DNA of 64,000 nucleotides, taken from NCBI RefSeq assembly GCF_910592395.1, contig NC_088311.1:1490501-1554500 (forward strand), written 5' to 3'. Within the stretch, counting starts at the first letter, position 1. The number at the start of each line of letters is the position of its first letter. This DNA is from Lineus longissimus. Lineage: Eukaryota; Nemertea; Pilidiophora; Heteronemertea; Lineidae. A program made the position numbers and the translations under genes. Positions 135-55,933 of the stretch are shown here, piece by piece. Under the pieces are notes generated by a model, which was not told the origin of the DNA, made no database searches, and saw only the letters and a program-made list of their open reading frames with translations.

Positions 135-1521
135 TTTCAAGCCTTCATCACACCATTTCACACATTCTCGAGGTATCTTTAATGCATTCCAACTTTGAGC
201 ACCTAAAATGAAACACAGATATCAATATCTAAAGCAATAAATAACAGTACATGTACATGCAGGGAAGTCACAACAGGGAGATGAGATATGCAACACTATT
301 TAGGGTACCACAGGCACCCCAGTTTAACAATTCACCGCTCTGTCATTTGCCACGTGGCTGTCAGTAATCCTCTTACAAAGTAGATGAATATAGATTAGAC
401 CTATGATAAACAAGACATGAAACTTGCTTGAAGAATCCCTTACCTTTTATGATCGCTTTCATATGATCATGCTTGAACTTGCGAGCAAAAAGACAATCCT
501 TCAAGCACGAGCGATAATTTTCTGAAAGAAAAAAATCAGCCAATTAGCATGACTGTATCTTCTGATTTGATTCCTGGAAGTTGGATTTACTCTGATATTT
601 TCTGGCCAATTCACCAAAGATATGCATTCTGACTATGAGTTAGTGCAAGAATGGAAACACTTACTCAGATACCAATGGCACATGGCTCTATTACAATAGA
701 GAACACAGTTGAGATTAAGGTCACCACACCTCTGCTTGATGCCCTCGCTGTAATGGTCAATGGCTGATCGGTACTTCTTCACCTTGAAATACATGTTGCC
801 ATCTTGTTTGTAGGTCATCGCAAGATCTGAAGGGAGAAGGATACAAGTGAAAATATGACAAAGGACAGATGAGGCTACAATGATTACGAGAATGATAAAG
901 ATGCTGATGATGATGATGATGAGTAAAAAACACAACGATGCACTATCATTATCCAACAGAAGTTTACTGATACCTACCAACTGGTTCATTTTGATCATAT
1001 TTCAGAGCTACCAAAGCCTCCCACTCTGGAGTCATCTCATCAAGAGGAGGGACCTCCTTGGCAAAGAACGGATGCTTCATGAGCTCCTGAAGTACAAAGA
1101 ATATGAGTTTAGAAGATCAGCAATTTTAACAGGCAATGATCGAGTGCTTCATCATGGGCTCCTGAAGGGCAAAGGTTAACAAAAAAACAGTATTTGATGG
1201 CAACCCCAACTCTCATTTACTGCAAAACAAACATGTGAGTCTCTTTCTTTGATCCGACACTGGGTCTGGTGGACTGGAAGTCTGCTGGGAGCATGACTAG
1301 CAAGACAGATTTCCCGCTCCCAATTTCTGCCCACAGAAAGATGCCAGAATCCAACTAAGCATGCCTACCCTCCATTCTGGACCAAGATCCTCCTCTAGAT
1401 CCTCTTCATTCTCACATTTTGCACCAGCATTTTCCTTGGAAGCTACAGGCAATTCTCCCAAATCCAATCCTGCCATTTTGAAGATTTTCTCGGGGAGACT
1501 TCTTTCTGAACTGGGCTCCAT
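135..1521 (-). CDS. TTC4: TTC4, tetratricopeptide co-chaperone (5' half; continues past left edge)
   Basis: TTC4 (yeast Cns1, fly Dpit47) is a TPR co-chaperone that links Hsp70 and Hsp90. Five exons are visible on the minus strand: 1369-1521, 978-1086, 665-826, 444-521 and 135-202. Phases match at each junction (0, 1, 1, 1) and give 190 codons, about half of the usual 385 or so. The start is the ATG at 1521, which gives MEPSSERSLPEKIF; the frame is open further upstream, but that stretch does not look like the family. Exon 2 carries the family signature HPFFAKEVPPLDEM. Exon 3 holds the first TPR (TYKQDGNMYFKVKKY, then NCVLYCNRAMCHWYL). Exons 4 and 5 continue it (KNYRSCLKDCLFARKFK, then VKWCDEGLK). 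The GN pair in the first TPR helix fits a chaperone-binding carboxylate clamp. The last visible exon ends at a GTATCCTTT donor of U12 type. The C-terminal wheel domain lies outside the window. Confidence 0.93.
1132..1176 (-). repeat. Duplicated fragment of a TTC4 exon start
   Basis: On the minus strand this copies the acceptor and first codons of the TTC4 exon at 978-1086. Both have a cttcag acceptor followed by GAGC-CATG-AAGCA. The copy would read EPMMKHSIIAC and then meets a stop. It lies in the intron just upstream of the real exon, so it looks like a small local duplication that has decayed and is not used. Confidence 0.5.
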
Positions 1522-2346: not shown

Positions 2347-2418
2347 TCCCATATGGTCTAGTGGTTAGGATTTCTGGCTCTCACCCAGGAGGCCCGGGTT
2401 CGATTCCCGGTGTGGGAA
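2347..2418 (+). tRNA. tRNA-Glu (CTC anticodon), copy 2
   Basis: The sequence is identical to the copy 333 bp upstream, including the CTC anticodon, both internal promoter boxes and the TTTT terminator shortly downstream. It belongs to the second unit of the tandem duplication. Identical genes inside diverged flanks suggest both copies are functional and under selection. Confidence 0.95.
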
Positions 2419-2655
2419 CGCTCATTTTGTACCTCGGCAATCGATTTCATTTTAATAGAAAGCACTGAGAGTGGTGGAGGCTGGGGAGACGCCCTGATGG
2501 TATCTTTTGTGTGACCGCTGTTTCTTTCATAGGTTGGATGTTACATGTTTTAAAAGTATTCTTGAGCATTCTTTTCCCCCAAACCAAGCTGGGAAATTTC
2601 TTACTTTGATAATCCCGTTAGTTATGATAGGAATCACAACAGGAGCACAAGCTGA

Positions 2656-2895: not shown

Positions 2896-2942
2896 ACAGT
2901 TCAGTATTGAAATAATCACAAGAGTTTATACACAAGTCCAAG

Positions 2943-4565
2943 ATGGTTGATATCAACACGACGAGTTCGATGCCGGGATATCCAGCTTACGCCTCCAATC
3001 TCTACAGCCGCCAGGACTACCCAGCCATGCAGTCACCTTACGTTGGGTATTCTCCCATGCCGGTCATGCCAGGCCTCCAGGACAGCACCGGACAAGTCAG
3101 CTACAGTTACCTGCCTCCTCCATACCCGTACAGCCGAGAAATCAGGCAAGACACCTTCAGGCAAGACACTCCTAAGCCATCCGTCTGGTCTCCTTGGGAT
3201 AACCGCCAGCAGATCGAACGCCGCAGTCCCCAGTACTCATCGCTAAACGTACCAAGAAGCGAGGAGAAGACCTTGAACCGATCAAGAGAATCAGAGAATT
3301 CGTATATCAGCGCCGGCAGTCCTGAGCAAGTCACCCTCTACCACCATGAAGGGACACCGCCCGGTGTGAGAGGTATGCTGAGACAAGACGACGTGGGAGA
3401 CAAACTCGACCAATCCAGTGGCAGCTCCATCTCAGCCCAGGGGAAATCCGACGAAGACAGTCACAGGTACACGGAGAAATCACCTGAATCCCGCAGTGAT
3501 GACAGCGTCGAGGAGGACAAACCGAAACGTCGCCGTGAACGCAAGCGAGACATCCGGGGCAAGCCGCCGTACAGCTACATCGCCCTGATCGCCATGGCTA
3601 TCGCCAACTCATCCGACCAGAAGAGCACCTTGAATGACATCTACAGCTTCATCGAAGACCGGTTCCCGTACTACAAGGAGAACAAGAAGAGATGGCAGGG
3701 CTCTATCCGTCACAACCTCACCCTGAACGAGTGTTTCATGAAGCTTCCACGTCAGCCAGGCTACAAGGGGCACCACTGGGCCATTGATCCCGCCTTCATG
3801 GACATGTTCGACGAGGGAAGCTTCCTCCGCAGACGATACCGATTCAAGAACAAGAAGAATGGCGGCAAACCGCAGAGTCCAGCAGAGCAGCAGACGACAG
3901 CCATCCGTAACAGCCTCATCAGCATGTCCGCAGTCGCACAGACCAACGCCGCAGCCAGTGCCCTCGTCCTCTCACGCCTTGAAGTAGCCGCCATGTCTCA
4001 GCCGAACGAGATCCTGGATTCGCCACCAGCACACGAATCTGTCGACACCTTTACCAACATGATGGACCAACCATCCACCAGCTCCACATCTTGCTTCCAA
4101 ACGGGAACTTACGGCATGCCAAAGGACACACGATCCGACTTCGGACAATACGCTCTTCCTCATCCGACATCGTTTTACTCGGGTTGTAACACGACTGTTC
4201 CCTCTCCTTCCGGATTACCGTACCCCGTGCCGTCCGCTGGATTACCGTACTCCGTCCCTTCTACGAATGGATTATCGTACTCCGTCCCTTCTACGAATGG
4301 ATTATCGTACTCCGTCCCTTCTACGAATGGATTATCGTACTCCGTGCCTTCTACATCTGGATCATCGTACTCTACTGTCCCTTCCACTACGTCTGGATTA
4401 TCGTACACGACTCCCGGATTATCCCTCTCGAACCTCACGCAGTCCGCTCCTCATTCGTACAGCAACTCGTGGATGTCTTACCCTCAGCGAGTCAAGCTCG
4501 ACCTGCAACAGGATATGACAACACTCCTCGATGGATACGCTAGCACATCCCTGACATCGTTATAA
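2943..4565 (+). CDS. Forkhead (Fox) transcription factor, FoxE-like, divergent, single exon
   Basis: This is an intronless 540-aa nuclear DNA-binding protein. The start sits in a good context (AAGATGG) just downstream of the TATA promoter. An N-terminal low-complexity half rich in Tyr, Pro and Ser ends in a basic stretch ([10 protein letters not shown]). The forkhead winged helix follows at about residues 207-300, beginning [17 protein letters not shown] and ending [14 protein letters not shown]. The best subclass resemblance is FoxE (IANS, RHNLTLN, GSFLRRR), but it is not a clean match. Two oddities: recognition helix 3 reads [12 protein letters not shown], with Gly253 where nearly all Fox proteins have Asn, and wing 1/2 is shortened ([10 protein letters not shown] lacks about two residues of the usual PGRPGKG). 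The C-terminal half carries 10-residue tandem repeats of the form [10 protein letters not shown]. Single-exon structure is usual for several class I Fox genes. Confidence 0.92.
4224..4370 (+). repeat. 30-bp in-frame minisatellite within the forkhead gene
   Basis: Three identical 30-bp units (4251-4280, 4281-4310, 4311-4340) are followed by a diverged fourth copy and preceded by a partial 27-bp copy. Each encodes ten residues, roughly [10 protein letters not shown], in the C-terminal low-complexity region. Length variation between alleles would keep the frame. Confidence 0.9.
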
Positions 4566-5218: not shown

Positions 5219-6917
5219 TTATCTCTCCCCTCGCTGCTCATCAGAGGCTGCTTCACCACCTGTCTCACTGGGAACAGTTGATTGCTGGTCGAGCAGCTCA
5301 TCGCGAGACGCTTCATTAACTGCGACATCTCCTCTGTCCAGCTGCGATCATAGTGTTCTCCGGCTCAGTGAGGTGAAAGAACGAGGAGCAATATGATGGG
5401 TGTGCCAGGCAGTATTCTGTGACTGCACCCGCGACATTGGAGTCAATGTTTCCGATATATTTCCGTTAGTTTATGCTAAGTAATAAGAGGAGGTTGCAAA
5501 CGCTCAACTCGGGTTCATCATAACAGGCTTTAAGTGAGTGTCTTTTAGATACGATATAAAGGCCTGGGAGGATAAATCGACTACACTTTTCAGATAGGAC
5601 TCCGGATGTCGGATTCTCGACACAGAGGGCTGTAAGCCTCGACTGTTCAGACTGCTTGGCTCTCCCTGGGCGGGGATCAGGGACCAGTCTATCAGATCCG
5701 CTGTCAGTTCCGTGTGAATGATGATAATTCCACCAGCGAAGATTAGCAACGAGATGCGTTCAGTGTACGTTGACGGTGAAGATCAATACTAGGATTTCAT
5801 TCCGGTATCTCATTCTAGTTAATATACATATAGTTGATGTTGTCAGGAATTACAACTAGGGGCTACTAAGTGAGGCGCGGAGCTTTCGACAAAATAACCT
5901 TCTCTGGTTCTGGAACAATTTGCTGTTCGTTAAACGCTTTGAAGATCAGTACATGAACAGAGAAGTGTTACTTTTCAGTTGCGTTTATACCTTCTCGTGA
6001 ATGCCTTTTGGGTCTGCAACAACTCACTCACTGTTGACTGATAGCTAAGAACAGTGACTGTTCAGTTGCTGTACAGTTGTTAGGGATTTCCCCTGCGGAG
6101 CGCAACTTCCGACTAGATGCCTTGTCAGGTCTTGCCGTACAGGAACTATTCCCCTGGGCAATTCCTTTGATCACCTCTTGTTGGTTGACAGTTTCATAAG
6201 ATCAATGGCAAGATACCTACCAGGATAGCGATATGTATAGCGCTTCATTTCCTCTGCTCTTGTCAGACAGCCGATCAGGAGCAAAAACCTTAAGTCTGTT
6301 AGCAACGAAGACCAGTAAGATGAACGTTTGGATGATGTCATACTCCGTGTCAGTGATGGACCAATCATAAGAACTCTTCGCTGGAATGGTAGCTTTGATT
6401 GCCTCTAGTTCCGATACTTACCAGAAACCATAGACTACCACTAAATACTGTTTCTGGTCTCGGTTAACAGAATATAGCCTGTCAGGAGGGAATCATTACC
6501 ATTGACTGTTGGCATGGTTATAAGGCGGTAGCCGCCAAAATTCAATATATTGTAATTCATTATACGTGCTTACTCTCTGAAAGAAGCACCAATCTTCAGG
6601 ACGTCAGTGTAACTAAAAGTTATTATATAGATCATTTAGGTCACCTCATCCTGAACGTACGGAAAGATGTTTAACCAGGAAGAGGACGGATAAACTCAAC
6701 CGTGTTTCCATGGTCTCCTGGATTACAACTATCTGTGATGCTATCATAGCTGTTAGTAATCAATGGATAGCCTGGGGTGCCATCAGATAATCGCCAGTGT
6801 TTAGTGCGCTGGAACCTGCAGCCTCGAGGTGCCGCTGCCACTGAGAGTCGCAACCCATTGATCGTATACGCAACTTCCCTGCTCTTCCCGGAATACTGCC
6901 CGCAGTTAGTCGGTTGT
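5219..6917 (-). CDS. Cluster of minus-strand coding-like segments; unrecognised gene or relic
   Basis: Several minus-strand segments look like real protein, with codon use unlike the AT-rich surroundings. Segment A (6895-6676) contains LRLSVAAAPRGC, then HWRLSDGTPGYPLI and GNTVEFIRPLPG. Segment B (6612-6574) reads YTDVLKIGASFR. Segment C (6478-6422) reads LYSVNRDQKQYLVVVYGF; B and C join in phase 2 at a GTAAGC donor and a gacag acceptor. Segment D (to 6221) contains DWSITDTEYDIIQTF and ends at GTAGGT. Further segments near 6153, 5940-5880 and 5750-5504 (with LLIFAGGIIIIHTEL, a possible membrane helix) follow. A last segment at 5341-5219 encodes an acidic tail ending DEQRGER and a stop. Junctions A/B and C/D do not keep frame with the obvious splice sites, so this may be a decayed copy, or I have boundaries wrong. 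I recognise no domain. Ectodomain, helix and acidic tail would suit a membrane protein. Confidence 0.38.
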
Positions 6918-32583: not shown

Positions 32584-32620
32584 ATGTCTGATCGGGAACG
32601 ATTACTCAAACACATTGGCT
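32584..32620 (+). other. Candidate first coding exon (MSDRERLLKHIG), phase-1 donor
   Basis: ATG with G at -3 opens twelve codons and one base, ending at the strong donor GTAAGTAC at 32621. The phase suits splicing to the phase-1 TIR exon at 50650. A hydrophilic N-terminus of this size would be reasonable for a cytosolic end. Chance occurrence cannot be excluded. Confidence 0.25.
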
Positions 32621-50649: not shown

Positions 50650-53600
50650 ACACTGCTGTCTTGGTGGAATGTGAGGTTCACCAAAACAATGCACTGCAAG
50701 CAAACCATGAAGAAATATCTCTCGACGTCCAACCATGTTCTCTGGAGAGGTCAGAATTGGGAGACCAGCAATCAGAAGCCAACGGACAACTGGCAAGTCC
50801 AGAGGATATCTCAATAGAGGATTTACAAATCCCGGCACATAGACTGGATGATAAATATCGATATCATGTGTTTGTTTCATACAATGCCAATGACAGGCAT
50901 TGGGTAGAGGACGATCTTATACACAGACTAGAGGCAGAACCGCACAATTTCAAATCATGTTTTGACCAACGAGACTTCGACAAAAACGTGTCGGAAATTC
51001 AAAACATTGTGTGTTCAATTATGCTTAGTGAAAGGATTATTATCGTTCTGTCACCAAGTTATGTTGAGAACTCATGGATCCAGTATGAAGAGACGATAGC
51101 TCATATCACGGCAATATCACAACATAAACAACGCGTGATTGTTCTTGTCCTTGAAGACTGTGAGATTCCGGACGCTCTTAAAATGTTGAACTATATCAGT
51201 GTCCACAGCAAGAACTACTGGAATAGGTTGCTTCTCTCACTGCAGCATGGTAAGTGTTGATTTATGTCTATTGAGAGTCGAGATTATGAGCAAGTGCTCT
51301 GAATCAGATTATCCTGGGAAAGGTAGGGAACAGATCATGAATTGTGCAGGATGCGGGAAGGAGACTTCCCTTTTCCCTGCTCCATGCTTTTAAGAACCGT
51401 ACCTAAGAATAGTGACTGAATAATGACAGAATAGCTGTCTGAAGCCTTGACAGATCTACTAGTAACGAGTAACGTTATTCGTGTTGTTGACGTCGCTTAG
51501 CCATTGATTGTACCTCTAATCACTCTACCTGTCTCCTCAGGTGGAAATGAATGACAAGCCTCCGATCATTGAGAAAACCATCACTTAAACCACATCACAG
51601 TTGGCAGGGCCGGTACATATAAGCATCCCATCAATCAGGCAGCGGAACCCGTTTTCACGATGTTGATTTATCCCACTATTGCATTGGTTCTTTTAGCATC
51701 GATCCTTCATAAATACACACACTTAGACAAACCATTTAATCAGGCATACTATCGCCTCCCTGAGTCAGATTTGCATCCTGTGAAAGCATTTCATCGATTT
51801 CTTTGCCTGATGGATTAAATGTGTGTTTGTATCATAATCCTCGTCTCATGGGACATTCAACAGGATCTCATGGAAGGCGCGGGTACGGTGACCGCAACTT
51901 CTGTCATTCCAGTATATTTACCGCTATGCTCACTACCTTCTGCTTGCTCAATCAGCATTGGGGCCCTGACCATTAAAGACATCTGTGTTCATTCAAGGTT
52001 TGTGTCTCGTTATGTAACAGAAAAATGCATCAAGAAGGCTGCCTGATTGAGATTCTAAACTGAATTGAGTTTCAATATTGAACTCGCTTGATTGGTAATC
52101 CGGTTTGGCTCAGAAGGTTTCCGATCTTTGATGATAATGTTACTTTAATGATGTTGAATATTTCTGGTGGGTTGTGTGTATTTTTCACAGATTAGATTTG
52201 TTCATTAGGTGCACTGATTGCAGTAAAAAAGGAAATGATTTCTTTCGTTACCTGTTGCCTGGTTAGTAGACAAGAACTGGAAGCTGGAATGACCCATACA
52301 TCCATGAATACAAGTTAAAAACCAACCAAAGTTTTTGAAAAGATCACTGCAGTAGTTTCTGTTGTGGTTGAGATGAAGAAAATCGTGCATCAACAGTAGG
52401 CTAAGTCTCCATGCTATACCAAATGTATAAATGAAAATGACATATTTTCTATTTGTGAGACCACTGGAAAAATGCAACATCTTTCATCTGATTCCAATCC
52501 AAATGATGGGCAGATCCTCCGTAGATTGTGTTCTTATAAAATGTGTCCTTCCATTTCAGATGGTGTTCATGCAAGCGAGTCAACAAGTACAATGTGGTCT
52601 ATAGTGTCTTCATCCCCTGGTGAGTACCCTGACCACCCTTTTTAAAAATGATCGGGAAAAAACCCTTTTTTGCAAATTATACATTAATACCTGCCCGTGA
52701 CCTCTCTATGCTCCATTGCAACTGAAGCATATTTCATTGAAGAGATTGATTGTTTTTGCAGGCTTTAGTAATGGACAGGTTCTATCTAATGTGAGTGCAA
52801 GGATTGAGGGATGTTGGAAGTCCTGTTTAATCTTTGACCCAGAGGAAGTGCCTAATCCGTTCTTCAGCCAAGAGATCTCAGTGAGTATCACGTATCCGCT
52901 GGCTGGTTGACAACATATTGAATTAACCTAATACCATATTTACCGTCTTGTTATGTCACTTTTCACCTTCTACCCAGTTGCATACAAGCTATTCTGTTGA
53001 TTTGAGTCCTTGATGGATTGTTAAGGGCTGGTCATGCAGTAAGGATTCCAATCCAATCACGTATATATAGTTGTCAATTATCTAATTGCTAATGAGGGAA
53101 CTGCCATTTCGTATTTTGTTTCTAATCCACATTCATAGTAATTATGGATTTAGTCATTGATTGTAATACCTCCATGGTTCACCTAAACAATTACTTATAC
53201 ATGTACTAGACGTACTTCATATTTTGCTGTGATTTGGTGTAGGCCCTACCAGTAATCGAATCCATTAACCATTAACATTTATGTCGCCGAAAATTCAATT
53301 TGCATTCGGTCCTTTTGCATTTGTTTTCATGTACAGTATGCTGAAATGCTTTCATTGCCTGATTTCAGATCTCAGGCAGTGAGTATGCAGAGCTAATTAA
53401 GATGATTGGTCGGGAGGAGTATGGACAGAAGATGCCCTGGATCTATTCAGCCGTCCCCACCATCGTCCTCCTGTCTTTCTTCGCTTCCTGGTGCATTGCT
53501 TTCATTTGCGTGATCGTCCTCTATCCTGATAATACTCCTGGTAAGTAAGACGCCTTGCAGACAGGAGACATACTTCAACCTGTGATAATCATCACTGCGA

Positions 53601-55933
53601 TTAGTGAAAAAAAGATTGCATTGCATGTCTGCTGAGAAAATTAGTCATCGCTTGGTTTGTTATTTCAACTTTTGTTGCATGCGATAATTACGGCAGGTCA
53701 CAGGTCACAATAGGAATTGGCTGTCTGCAGGGACTCAGGGTCTGTATCTATGAGATGTTCGGGATGATCCAAAAACTGTAGATGAAGAAGAGGTTGTTAT
53801 CTATCAGTGTCAACCAGCTGCCGTGAACAGATTGTATGAGATTGGTGATTAAGTTGGTACCATTGAAGGGAAACAGCTATCAGTGTAAATAAAGAACTAC
53901 ATTGTATTTGATCATTGATGACGTGATAGAAAGAAAGGGACGGTGACATGTAGATCTTGGTGTCAATAATAAGACGTTAGAGATATACCGAGGTCATAAC
54001 AAGGAAATCGAGATCCGAGTTGTAGATAACAAGCTGTAATTGGATTCTCAGTAAATGAGACAGTCCAGCCATCTAATAGCAGGACATAAACAACACATGA
54101 ATCTGAATAAAAGGTGCTCTATCCTTGGTCTCTAAGCCACCTAAAGGTTCTTTTTCTTCGGTTGCCGTTCCATAAAGATCTTGCCCATCTTTCAGGTACT
54201 CTTCCTGTGCGCCTGTGTGTGTTTGTCCTGCCAGCAATAATGATAGTGGGGGGCTGCTTTCTTCGATGGCGAGCAGTAAAGATAGGCAAGGAAAGAGTGA
54301 GTACAGGCGTTGCTTCATGGCCCATCTGTATGCACCCAACGCACAGTTGAGGATGCTTCCTGATTCCCTGTTCCAGTTTGGCCAAGTCCATTCAATTTCA
54401 TTTCACACCTCGTTTCTCTTAAACACATGATTTGTAAAATAACCATGTCTTATAATGATGACATTATGTCTGACTTTATGTGTCATAAAGGCTTTTCATT
54501 CGTTGTGACTTGATGCAAGCTGTCGCTATATTTTCAATGTTTTCCCTCTCTCATTTACAGTATTCAATAGCAATGTTCAGTCGGAGCGTCCAGTCAAATA
54601 AGGAGCTTTTCAAACGAGCAAAACCTGTGATAGTCTCAACAGCAAGAACAAAAGATGACTTTTTCAATGTATCCTTTATCGACCAGTAATAGGCTGGATA
54701 TGCCATCGCCATTCATGTACGATGCAGCTATGAAATGACTTTAACTTCTAGTTAGTTTTAACTTCGACTTTAACGTCAAACATGAAGAGACCATAAAATA
54801 CAGTTCATTCCTTGACTTCAGGACAGATATACTTTCTTTATTATCAGCGACAGGAATGTATAGTAAGTAATCGGTGGTCCCGATCAACGTGTTAGCACAT
54901 TAACGGTGCCTGGTCACCGTCATGAAAACCCAAAATTCTTGTGTTCCTCCTCACAGTATGTAAGCCACCGTAATTGGTAAGCTGTTGCTCGTGAGTGTTT
55001 AACGGGATGTTGATCAAAACTCCTTGAAAGATCATTTCGGTAAATCGTCGGCGTTGAAGAAGCGTTGAAAGACAAGTGACATGGAGCTGGTGATAGCTAG
55101 ATCAGAATGCACAAAGTTCACTTGTTGTAGTCACAGTGAGTTTAACTCGTGATAGAGCTTTTGGAACTGGAGGAACTGGAGGAGGTACCCAGTTCAAAAT
55201 CCGGCAATGGCAATATATGTTTTTAGTTATCTGAATATTTCCCGTTCCAGGAGCACATCAACTTGTTTCTCCATCATTGTACGGATCGAGACATTATCAA
55301 GTTATCCCGGTTGATTGAAGTCTACACATCAAGTTCAGGATACTTAGAAGGGGTGAGTATAGAACAGAAACCTGTATTAGTGCCCAGTTGAAAGACTGTG
55401 TGAGGGAGGGTTTTTTATTCTTGCCTCTGTCCCAACCGACAGTCAGATGACAAAAATTGGTTCTGCATTCATTTTGTTCCATATGTTACCACAACCATAC
55501 AGTTTCTCACATTTGGTTGTATTTCATTGCCTCCCCTGAAGGTAGCTAGCACTGAGGCTGTTGCTGGTTCTTGCCTTCAATAACGAAAGTTGCAGATAAA
55601 ATATGGCACTCATGATTTGTCTCAGGTGTCAACTTTTCCTTTCAGACGAATATAGCTGAGAGGCTTGCTGTGATGTTTAGTTCTCCCTATGCCATCCAGA
55701 TGGTGTTCAAGAAGCTACCCCACCCGCTGGAGCAGCGCCATACACGACGACGACAATGCTTGTGTCAGTTTGTCGAGGAATTCCTGACGGCTTATCTTCC
55801 ATGTCTGCGCCACGAGGGGGCGTTTGACGTCCGACACTTACAGATTCTCTTCCTACGCTATCTGAACTGTCAATTAAAACCAGATCCTATCATTATGCAC
55901 ACATTAGGAATCGGACTTTCTCATATTCTATAG
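50650..55933 (+). CDS. TIR domain fused to a TMEM268-like two-pass membrane protein (5' end not determined)
   Basis: Eight exons join in frame: 50650-51249, 52560-52619, 52762-52880, 53369-53540, 54196-54296, 54561-54668, 55251-55352 and 55646-55933. Junction phases are 1,1,0,1,0,0,0, giving 515 residues plus an unseen N-terminus. Exon 1 begins with about 70 acidic, disordered residues, then a TIR domain: box 1 YHVFVSYNANDRHWV, box 2 SCFDQRDFDKN, the helix with SWIQYEE (Trp and Glu spaced as in active TIRs), and a box-3-like KNYWNRLL. The rest aligns with vertebrate TMEM268: FSNGQVL near the start, two adjacent helices (TIVLLSFFASWCIAFICVIV and CVFVLPAIMIVGGCFL), and a C-terminal segment with AERLAVMF and LEQRHTRRRQCLCQFVE. 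Both ends probably face the cytosol. No ATG precedes the TIR in its exon, so an upstream exon must exist. The donor after 54668 is GTATCCTTT, U12-like. TIR domains mediate homotypic signalling or NAD cleavage; the TMEM268 role is poorly known. Confidence 0.85.
51660..51818 (+). CDS. Possible small ORF, 52 aa, signal-like N-terminus
   Basis: The ORF lies in the intron after the TIR exon. It starts MLIYPTIALVLLASILHKY, which resembles a short signal peptide or anchor, and ends at TAA. A CATATAAG motif sits about 45 bp upstream. No family is recognised and a chance frame is the likelier explanation. Confidence 0.15.
   Translation: MLIYPTIALVLLASILHKYTHLDKPFNQAYYRLPESDLHPVKAFHRFLCLMD

Follow-up and report, generated by a model that had tools for sequence, protein, structure and literature searches.

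Does the nemertean Lineus longissimus carry a gene that joins a TIR domain to a protein related to TMEM268, and if so, what might the joined protein do? The locus that raises this question lies in a 64,000-nucleotide stretch of contig C4 (C4:1490501-1554500 in the whole genome; hereafter, the window) and corresponds to LOC135487228, whose predicted product, isoform X2 (P0001, 540 aa), is uncharacterized in databases. Judging from its sequence and from those of its relatives, the fusion is a real, conserved gene that can hardly be put down to faulty annotation.

The first-pass annotation, made from the window alone, held that a TIR exon joins the exon starting at 52560 in phase 1 and that all remaining junctions keep frame to the C-terminus. 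The coordinates and phases of the first junction proved correct, and the later junctions are all in frame, with one 36-nt microexon (54827-54862) overlooked: the exons as then joined matched P0001 with 98% identity at 100% query coverage, and adding the microexon gave exact identity from the TIR exon through the stop codon. The span assigned to the gene, 50650 to 55933, similarly takes in the exons from TIR to stop and lacks the start exon (32584-32620), 18 kb upstream, which is the sole plus-strand match in the window when the N-terminus of P0001 is back-translated; the result was the same with up to two substitutions permitted in the last nine codons. The protein of another nemertean, Tubulanus polymorphus, starts with a peptide similar to that encoded by this exon. 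The complete coding sequence thus comprises 10 exons totaling 1,623 nt (540 codons plus stop) interrupted by nine introns, with the TIR exon flanked by introns of 18 kb (5') and 1.3 kb (3'). The chance of phase agreement at any one junction is 1/3, which alone makes it weak evidence. Both the TIR exon and the linker exon that follows it run from phase 1 to phase 1, so either can be skipped with the frame intact, and skipping of the symmetric TIR exon would permit a TIR-less isoform. The TIR exon as a separate gene was rejected, since its open frame holds no ATG before the TIR and the exon starts at an acceptor site.

The combination of TIR and TMEM268-like parts was detected in eight database proteins: those of the two nemerteans; those of five bivalve species in four genera (Mytilus coruscus, Mytilus galloprovincialis, Pecten maximus, Pinctada imbricata, and Argopecten irradians—that is, mussels, scallops, and a pearl oyster); and P0003. 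A check proposed in the first-pass annotation, looking for TIR plus TMEM268 in related proteomes, therefore recovered the same architecture in two named phyla. Searching with the joined protein gave six matches at E 0.001 (4,180 candidates), five of them TIR plus TMEM268-like proteins and the sixth a Toll receptor at 31% query coverage. A TMEM268-like profile gave eight matches among 3,914 candidates, with a TIR in all eight, a proportion that may partly reflect the query, as the profile was built from four fused proteins. P0003 is a 579-residue TIR-plus-TMEM268 frame, 41% identical to the Lineus protein, that runs intronless along a 1,892-base contig; because the Lineus gene has nine coding introns, this contig fits a transcript, which it presumably is, and it comes nearest to cDNA support for the fusion. 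Identities, computed for chosen pairs only, were 74% for TIR and TMEM268-like part alike between Lineus and Tubulanus, and 36% and 28%, respectively, between Lineus and Mytilus coruscus. The gap in the Mytilus protein P0005 coincides within one residue with Lineus exons 54561-54668 and 54827-54862, and the gaps in the Pinctada protein P0008 with exons 52560-52619 (residues 214-233) and 54827-54862, also within one residue. Gaps at Lineus exon boundaries suggest that the nemertean and bivalve genes may share intron positions, although P0005 and P0008 could be predicted isoforms. One further member, P0009, has an aberrant C-terminus and is perhaps mispredicted.

These observations bear on the simplest objection, that a gene predictor joined a neighboring TIR gene and TMEM268 gene, or that the assembly is in error. 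Both the Lineus and the Mytilus galloprovincialis entry (isoform X2) bear a name typical of predicted proteins, and the sizes of the introns on either side of the TIR exon would suit such a mistake. However, the same domain order recurs in seven further proteins, one of them on the 1,892-base contig, the TIR exon lacks an ATG before the TIR and ends in a clean donor site, and the linker and microexon are kept in frame among the fused proteins; we consider an artefact very improbable.

What the C-terminal half is related to was assessed at the level of profiles. The Pfam family DUF4481 (PF14800) scored 23.5 bits in P0001, not reaching its cut-off of 25, with its best stretch at residues 447-489. 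It was matched in seven of the eight fused members, invariably through the profile's C-terminal end, with scores of 16.7-25.0 bits; among the seven members other than P0001, P0005 reached 25.0, five scored 16.7-23.5, and P0009 gave no match. Based on an hhalign comparison of the TMEM268 regions of six fused proteins (profile A6; P0005 and P0009 were left out for missing exons or an aberrant C-terminus) with 12 mammalian TMEM268 proteins, the two align over 245 columns at 21% identity (E 7e-6, probability 84%, score 47), against control scores of 28.5 for the best of 30 column-shuffled profiles, 15.3 for the reversed profile, and 11.1 for the fused TIR region. By this measure, the TMEM268 half is a divergent TMEM268 homologue; the first-pass annotation had described a TMEM268-like C-terminus. 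In a search with TMEM268 as bait, in which scoring was confined to the 7,998 candidates with most words in common, the best 120 of 193 matches comprised three fused proteins and 117 with PF14800; the named entries among these 117 were mammals, so that they are uninformative on invertebrate TMEM268. A match of P0001 to Claudin_2 (PF13903; 18.7 bits, cut-off 29.1; found in two of eight members) was taken as chance arising from the helices.

Two strong adjacent hydropathy peaks were present in all six fused proteins examined, together with weaker peaks elsewhere in all six; in two mammalian TMEM268 proteins, the same region forms three overlapping peaks. In all eight members, the flank after helix 2 carries a net charge of +3 to +8, the loop between the helices 0 or -1, and the flank before helix 1 0 to -2. 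Under the positive-inside rule, the basic flank after helix 2 would place the C-terminal side in the cytosol and, with two helices, the TIR there too; both ends would thus be cytosolic, with the TIR exposed at the inner surface of a membrane toward the cytosol. The adjacent hydrophobic helices and the basic stretch support this arrangement, which the first-pass annotation had also put forward and which we continue to infer rather than observe. The Mytilus protein P0004 has an extra hydropathy peak at 432-457. The structure model of the fused protein was too weak for the TMEM268 fold to be read.

The identification of the 600-nt exon as a TIR exon was borne out, with TIR_2 at 61.2 bits in P0001 (cut-off 28; 1.8e-16), and above cut-off in the other seven of seven members, and Pfam TIR at 45.6 bits (cut-off 21.3; 9.1e-12). 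The solved relatives closest to it by sequence are the Toll-like receptors (TLRs) TLR10, TLR1, and TLR15/TLR2, and by sequence the domain is TLR-like, nearest the TLR1/2/6/10 type. At E 0.01, the exon matched 27 solved sequences, which include TLRs, MyD88, TIR-STING, Hydra TRR-2, IL1RAP, and SIGIRR but not SARM1. TLR TIRs were also the top Foldseek matches of the weak structure model, whose fold matches include, with Z as high as for TLRs, the NADase (nicotinamide adenine dinucleotide [NAD]-hydrolyzing) TIRs of SPARTA and SARM1; the best 50 rows of each PDB comparison were all TIR- or SEFIR-containing entries. No leucine-rich repeat (LRR), Death domain, or kinase family was matched at E 1 in the eight fused members. 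Their BB loop lacks RDFxPG in all eight and is not conserved in bivalves.

Clues to function come from mammalian TMEM268. According to the accessible part of one study, mouse TMEM268 binds CD11b, which it spares endosomal-lysosomal degradation; loss of TMEM268 impairs phagocytosis and bacterial clearance, with worse sepsis and higher bacterial burden; raised TNF, IFN-beta, and MCP-1 were linked by the authors to enhanced TLR signaling, for which further evidence was said to be required (PMC11169502). Human TMEM268, in the portion of a second paper available to us, binds ITGB4 via residues 104-342 (PMC6748091). The helical hairpin would hold the TIR on the cytosolic side of the membrane, be it plasma or endosomal. 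If the Lineus protein retains contacts of the mammalian kind, the TIR would sit there beside integrin-type receptors like those bound by mammalian TMEM268 and, as a scaffold or adaptor, would couple adhesion or phagocytosis receptors to TLR/MyD88-type signaling through TIR-TIR contact, not NAD hydrolysis. The role in innate signaling raised in the first-pass annotation is likewise a conjecture. Taken as a whole, a membrane-anchored TIR protein acting as an adhesion- or phagocytosis-receptor scaffold or adaptor is the reading toward which we lean, by a modest degree. A bolder version is tentative, and we hold it to be rather doubtful: an ancient lophotrochozoan membrane TIR adaptor would physically link integrin-type receptors, phagocytic or adhesive, to signaling of the TLR type. 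If true, covalent fusion would do here what mammals do by TMEM268-stabilized beta2 integrin/TLR crosstalk, and a functional TMEM268-TIR signaling link would be revealed, possibly in vertebrates too.

Two other functions have to be weighed against the scaffold or adaptor. The TIR could instead be a membrane-tethered NADase, or an enzyme making cyclic ADP-ribose, that is restrained by the TMEM268 part. A Glu stands at the aligned NADase position in three of the eight members (E159 in Lineus P0001, Tubulanus P0002, and P0003), which we take to be the position of the SARM1 catalytic Glu, and SPARTA and SARM1 appear among the fold matches noted above. The five bivalve members carry Arg or Gln at this position, and the Glu is not diagnostic, being present at the aligned place in TLR10 and TLR1 as well (three alignments); the lack of SARM1 among the 27 solved sequences likewise speaks against an enzyme. 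In the available text of a preprint, an amoeba TIR protein with an N-terminal membrane helix has NADase activity, and deleting that helix leads to toxicity (PMC13142454), which counts in favor of a tethered enzyme. The role in NAD metabolism raised in the first-pass annotation is weakened by the loss of Glu from all five bivalve proteins: as a conserved function NADase was set aside, for the nemerteans it is possible, and overall we consider it quite unlikely. Since the Glu is absent in these five proteins, NAD hydrolysis seems less probable than a part as scaffold or adaptor.

A decoy or brake, in which the membrane TIR engages the TIRs of TLRs or adaptors but relays no signal, much like inhibitory TIRs of the SIGIRR type, draws on the missing RDFxPG and the unconserved bivalve BB loop, and on the lack at E 1 of any match to a Death domain or kinase. 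However, between the two nemerteans the TIR and the TMEM268 part are equally conserved, and the brake and adaptor readings are indistinguishable on present data; overall, we regard a brake as unlikely.

How the scaffold or adaptor candidate arose can be approached through a second Lineus TMEM268 gene, located near C17:16.267-16.270 Mb, in which DUF4481 scores 44.2 bits and so passes its cut-off. It was the sole place found when the Lineus genome was searched with primate TMEM268 at E 10, and it matches both DUF4481 and primate TMEM268 better than the window gene does. Three of its exons were placed in a 9.5-kb region (L014, G000:C17:16262000-16271500; about 5641-5745, 5944, and 7510 within it): a 35-codon phase 0-to-0 exon, an exon beginning LHFIYF, and the last exon. 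These align with the 36-codon exon, the microexon, and the last exon of the fused gene, and all start between codons. None of 31 genome TIR places (E 0.001) lies on C17, although such a search could overlook a TIR divided among small exons. Lineus accordingly has at least one TIR-bearing TMEM268-like gene and one without a detected TIR. Given this second gene and the matching exon boundaries, the fused gene is most likely a TMEM268 duplicate that gained a symmetric phase 1-to-1 TIR exon, and its spread over nemerteans and bivalves suggests that the fusion occurred before these lineages parted. Elsewhere in the genome, a DUF4481 match at G000:C9:14049768-14050052 (L010; 22.7 bits) contains three internal stops and either arose by chance or marks a dead copy.

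In a tree of 17 TIRs, the eight fused domains and nine other Lineus domains were separated by a 100/100 branch, which fits a single fusion event. One of the 31 TIR places is the window itself; 19 regions covering 22 of the 30 others were taken, and the nine domains entered were those of at least 85 residues with E <0.05 to the fused-TIR profile, multi-exon and divergent TIRs being missing. This narrow sampling, the choice of the nine with the fused-TIR profile itself, and long branches that were flagged count against a firm reading of the tree. Two other groups of TIRs were seen in the genome. Four TIR places lie within 240 kb at G000:C4:5631732-5870321, on the same contig as the window; the three of them in the tree group together (100/99), and this is probably a local TIR gene cluster. 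At G000:C5:4658837-4660234 (minus strand), three TIR matches fall in what is apparently one 640-residue open frame, a possible triple-TIR protein.

Coding exons of the Lineus TIR-TMEM268 gene, in window positions
Feature	Position	Strand	Details
First coding exon	32584..32620	+	37 nt; MSDRERLLKHIG plus first base of next codon; phase 1 out; then GTAAGT
TIR exon	50650..51249	+	600 nt; CAG before, GTAAGT after; phase 1 in, 1 out
Linker exon	52560..52619	+	60 nt; phase 1 to 1
Start of TMEM268-like part	52762..52880	+	NGQVL motif
Predicted transmembrane helix 1 exon	53369..53540	+	Hydropathy peak 2.77; weak-model helix 300-323
Predicted transmembrane helix 2 exon and start of basic stretch	54196..54296	+	Hydropathy peak 2.35; weak-model helix 329-381; flank net charge +5
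TMEM268-like exon	54561..54668	+	36 codons, phase 0 to 0; counterpart is the 35-codon exon of the C17 TMEM268 gene
Microexon	54827..54862	+	36 nt, IYFLYYQRQECI
TMEM268-like exon	55251..55352	+	Open frame kept
Last coding exon	55646..55933	+	RHT..CLCQF motif, stop

The window holds other features apart from this gene. A long single open frame at 2916-4562 (plus strand) encodes a forkhead domain (2.1e-33) and includes a 30-base tandem repeat at 4238-4406. Two tRNA-Glu (CTC) genes, at 2014-2086 and 2347-2419 (plus strand), have equal Rfam scores and starts 333 bases apart, and an open frame at 636-1001 (minus strand) gave a tetratricopeptide-repeat match of 26.8 bits against a cut-off of 27.8.

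The fused proteins are labeled in databases as uncharacterized or as TIR domain-containing, with P0005 bearing both Pfam labels. No paper was found that treats a TIR domain and TMEM268 together, although the architecture may appear under a family number in the bivalve survey of Gerdol 2017, and none was found that names PF14800; no TMEM268 fusion is named in the accessible text of PMC6321704, PMC6836662, PMC5549309, PMC9334734, PMC13142454, or PMC8609888. Aside from that survey, this agrees with the first-pass annotation, which knew of no described architecture of this kind, and the fusion seems to be a domain architecture new among membrane TIR proteins, adding a seemingly undescribed membrane-anchored type. 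Work in mice tied TMEM268 to anti-infectious immunity in 2024 and, in the part of the report available, treated its connection with TLR output as a hypothesis (PMC11169502). A TMEM268 copy fused to a TIR in two phyla is independent evolutionary evidence of a possible common pathway.

Among known systems, the fused protein resembles the ecTIR-DC families in being an invertebrate TIR protein outside TLR and MyD88, as these are described in the accessible text of PMC6321704. TLRs of the TLR1/2/6/10 type provide the best sequence and Foldseek matches to its TIR; unlike them, it has no LRR match and no RDFxPG BB loop, and its TIR comes before two helices, not after one. It differs from MyD88 in that none of the eight members matches a Death domain at E 1. 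TIRAP/Mal and TRAM also place a TIR at the cytosolic membrane face, and the TRAM TIR is among the weak-model fold matches, but these adaptors attach by lipid binding or a lipid anchor, whereas the fused protein has a predicted integral hairpin; TRAM-type adaptors carry an N-terminal Met-Gly myristoylation site, whereas P0001 begins MSDRER and has no such site. With TMEM268 itself (C9orf91; PF14800), the fused protein shares the NGQVL start, two adjacent membrane helices, and an RHT..C.CQ motif near the C-terminus, but it carries in addition an N-terminal TIR and a longer C-terminus. Oyster TIR-STING (6wt6/6wt7; sequence match 1.6e-6) is likewise an invertebrate TIR joined to a non-receptor immune protein, with STING as the partner there and TMEM268 here.

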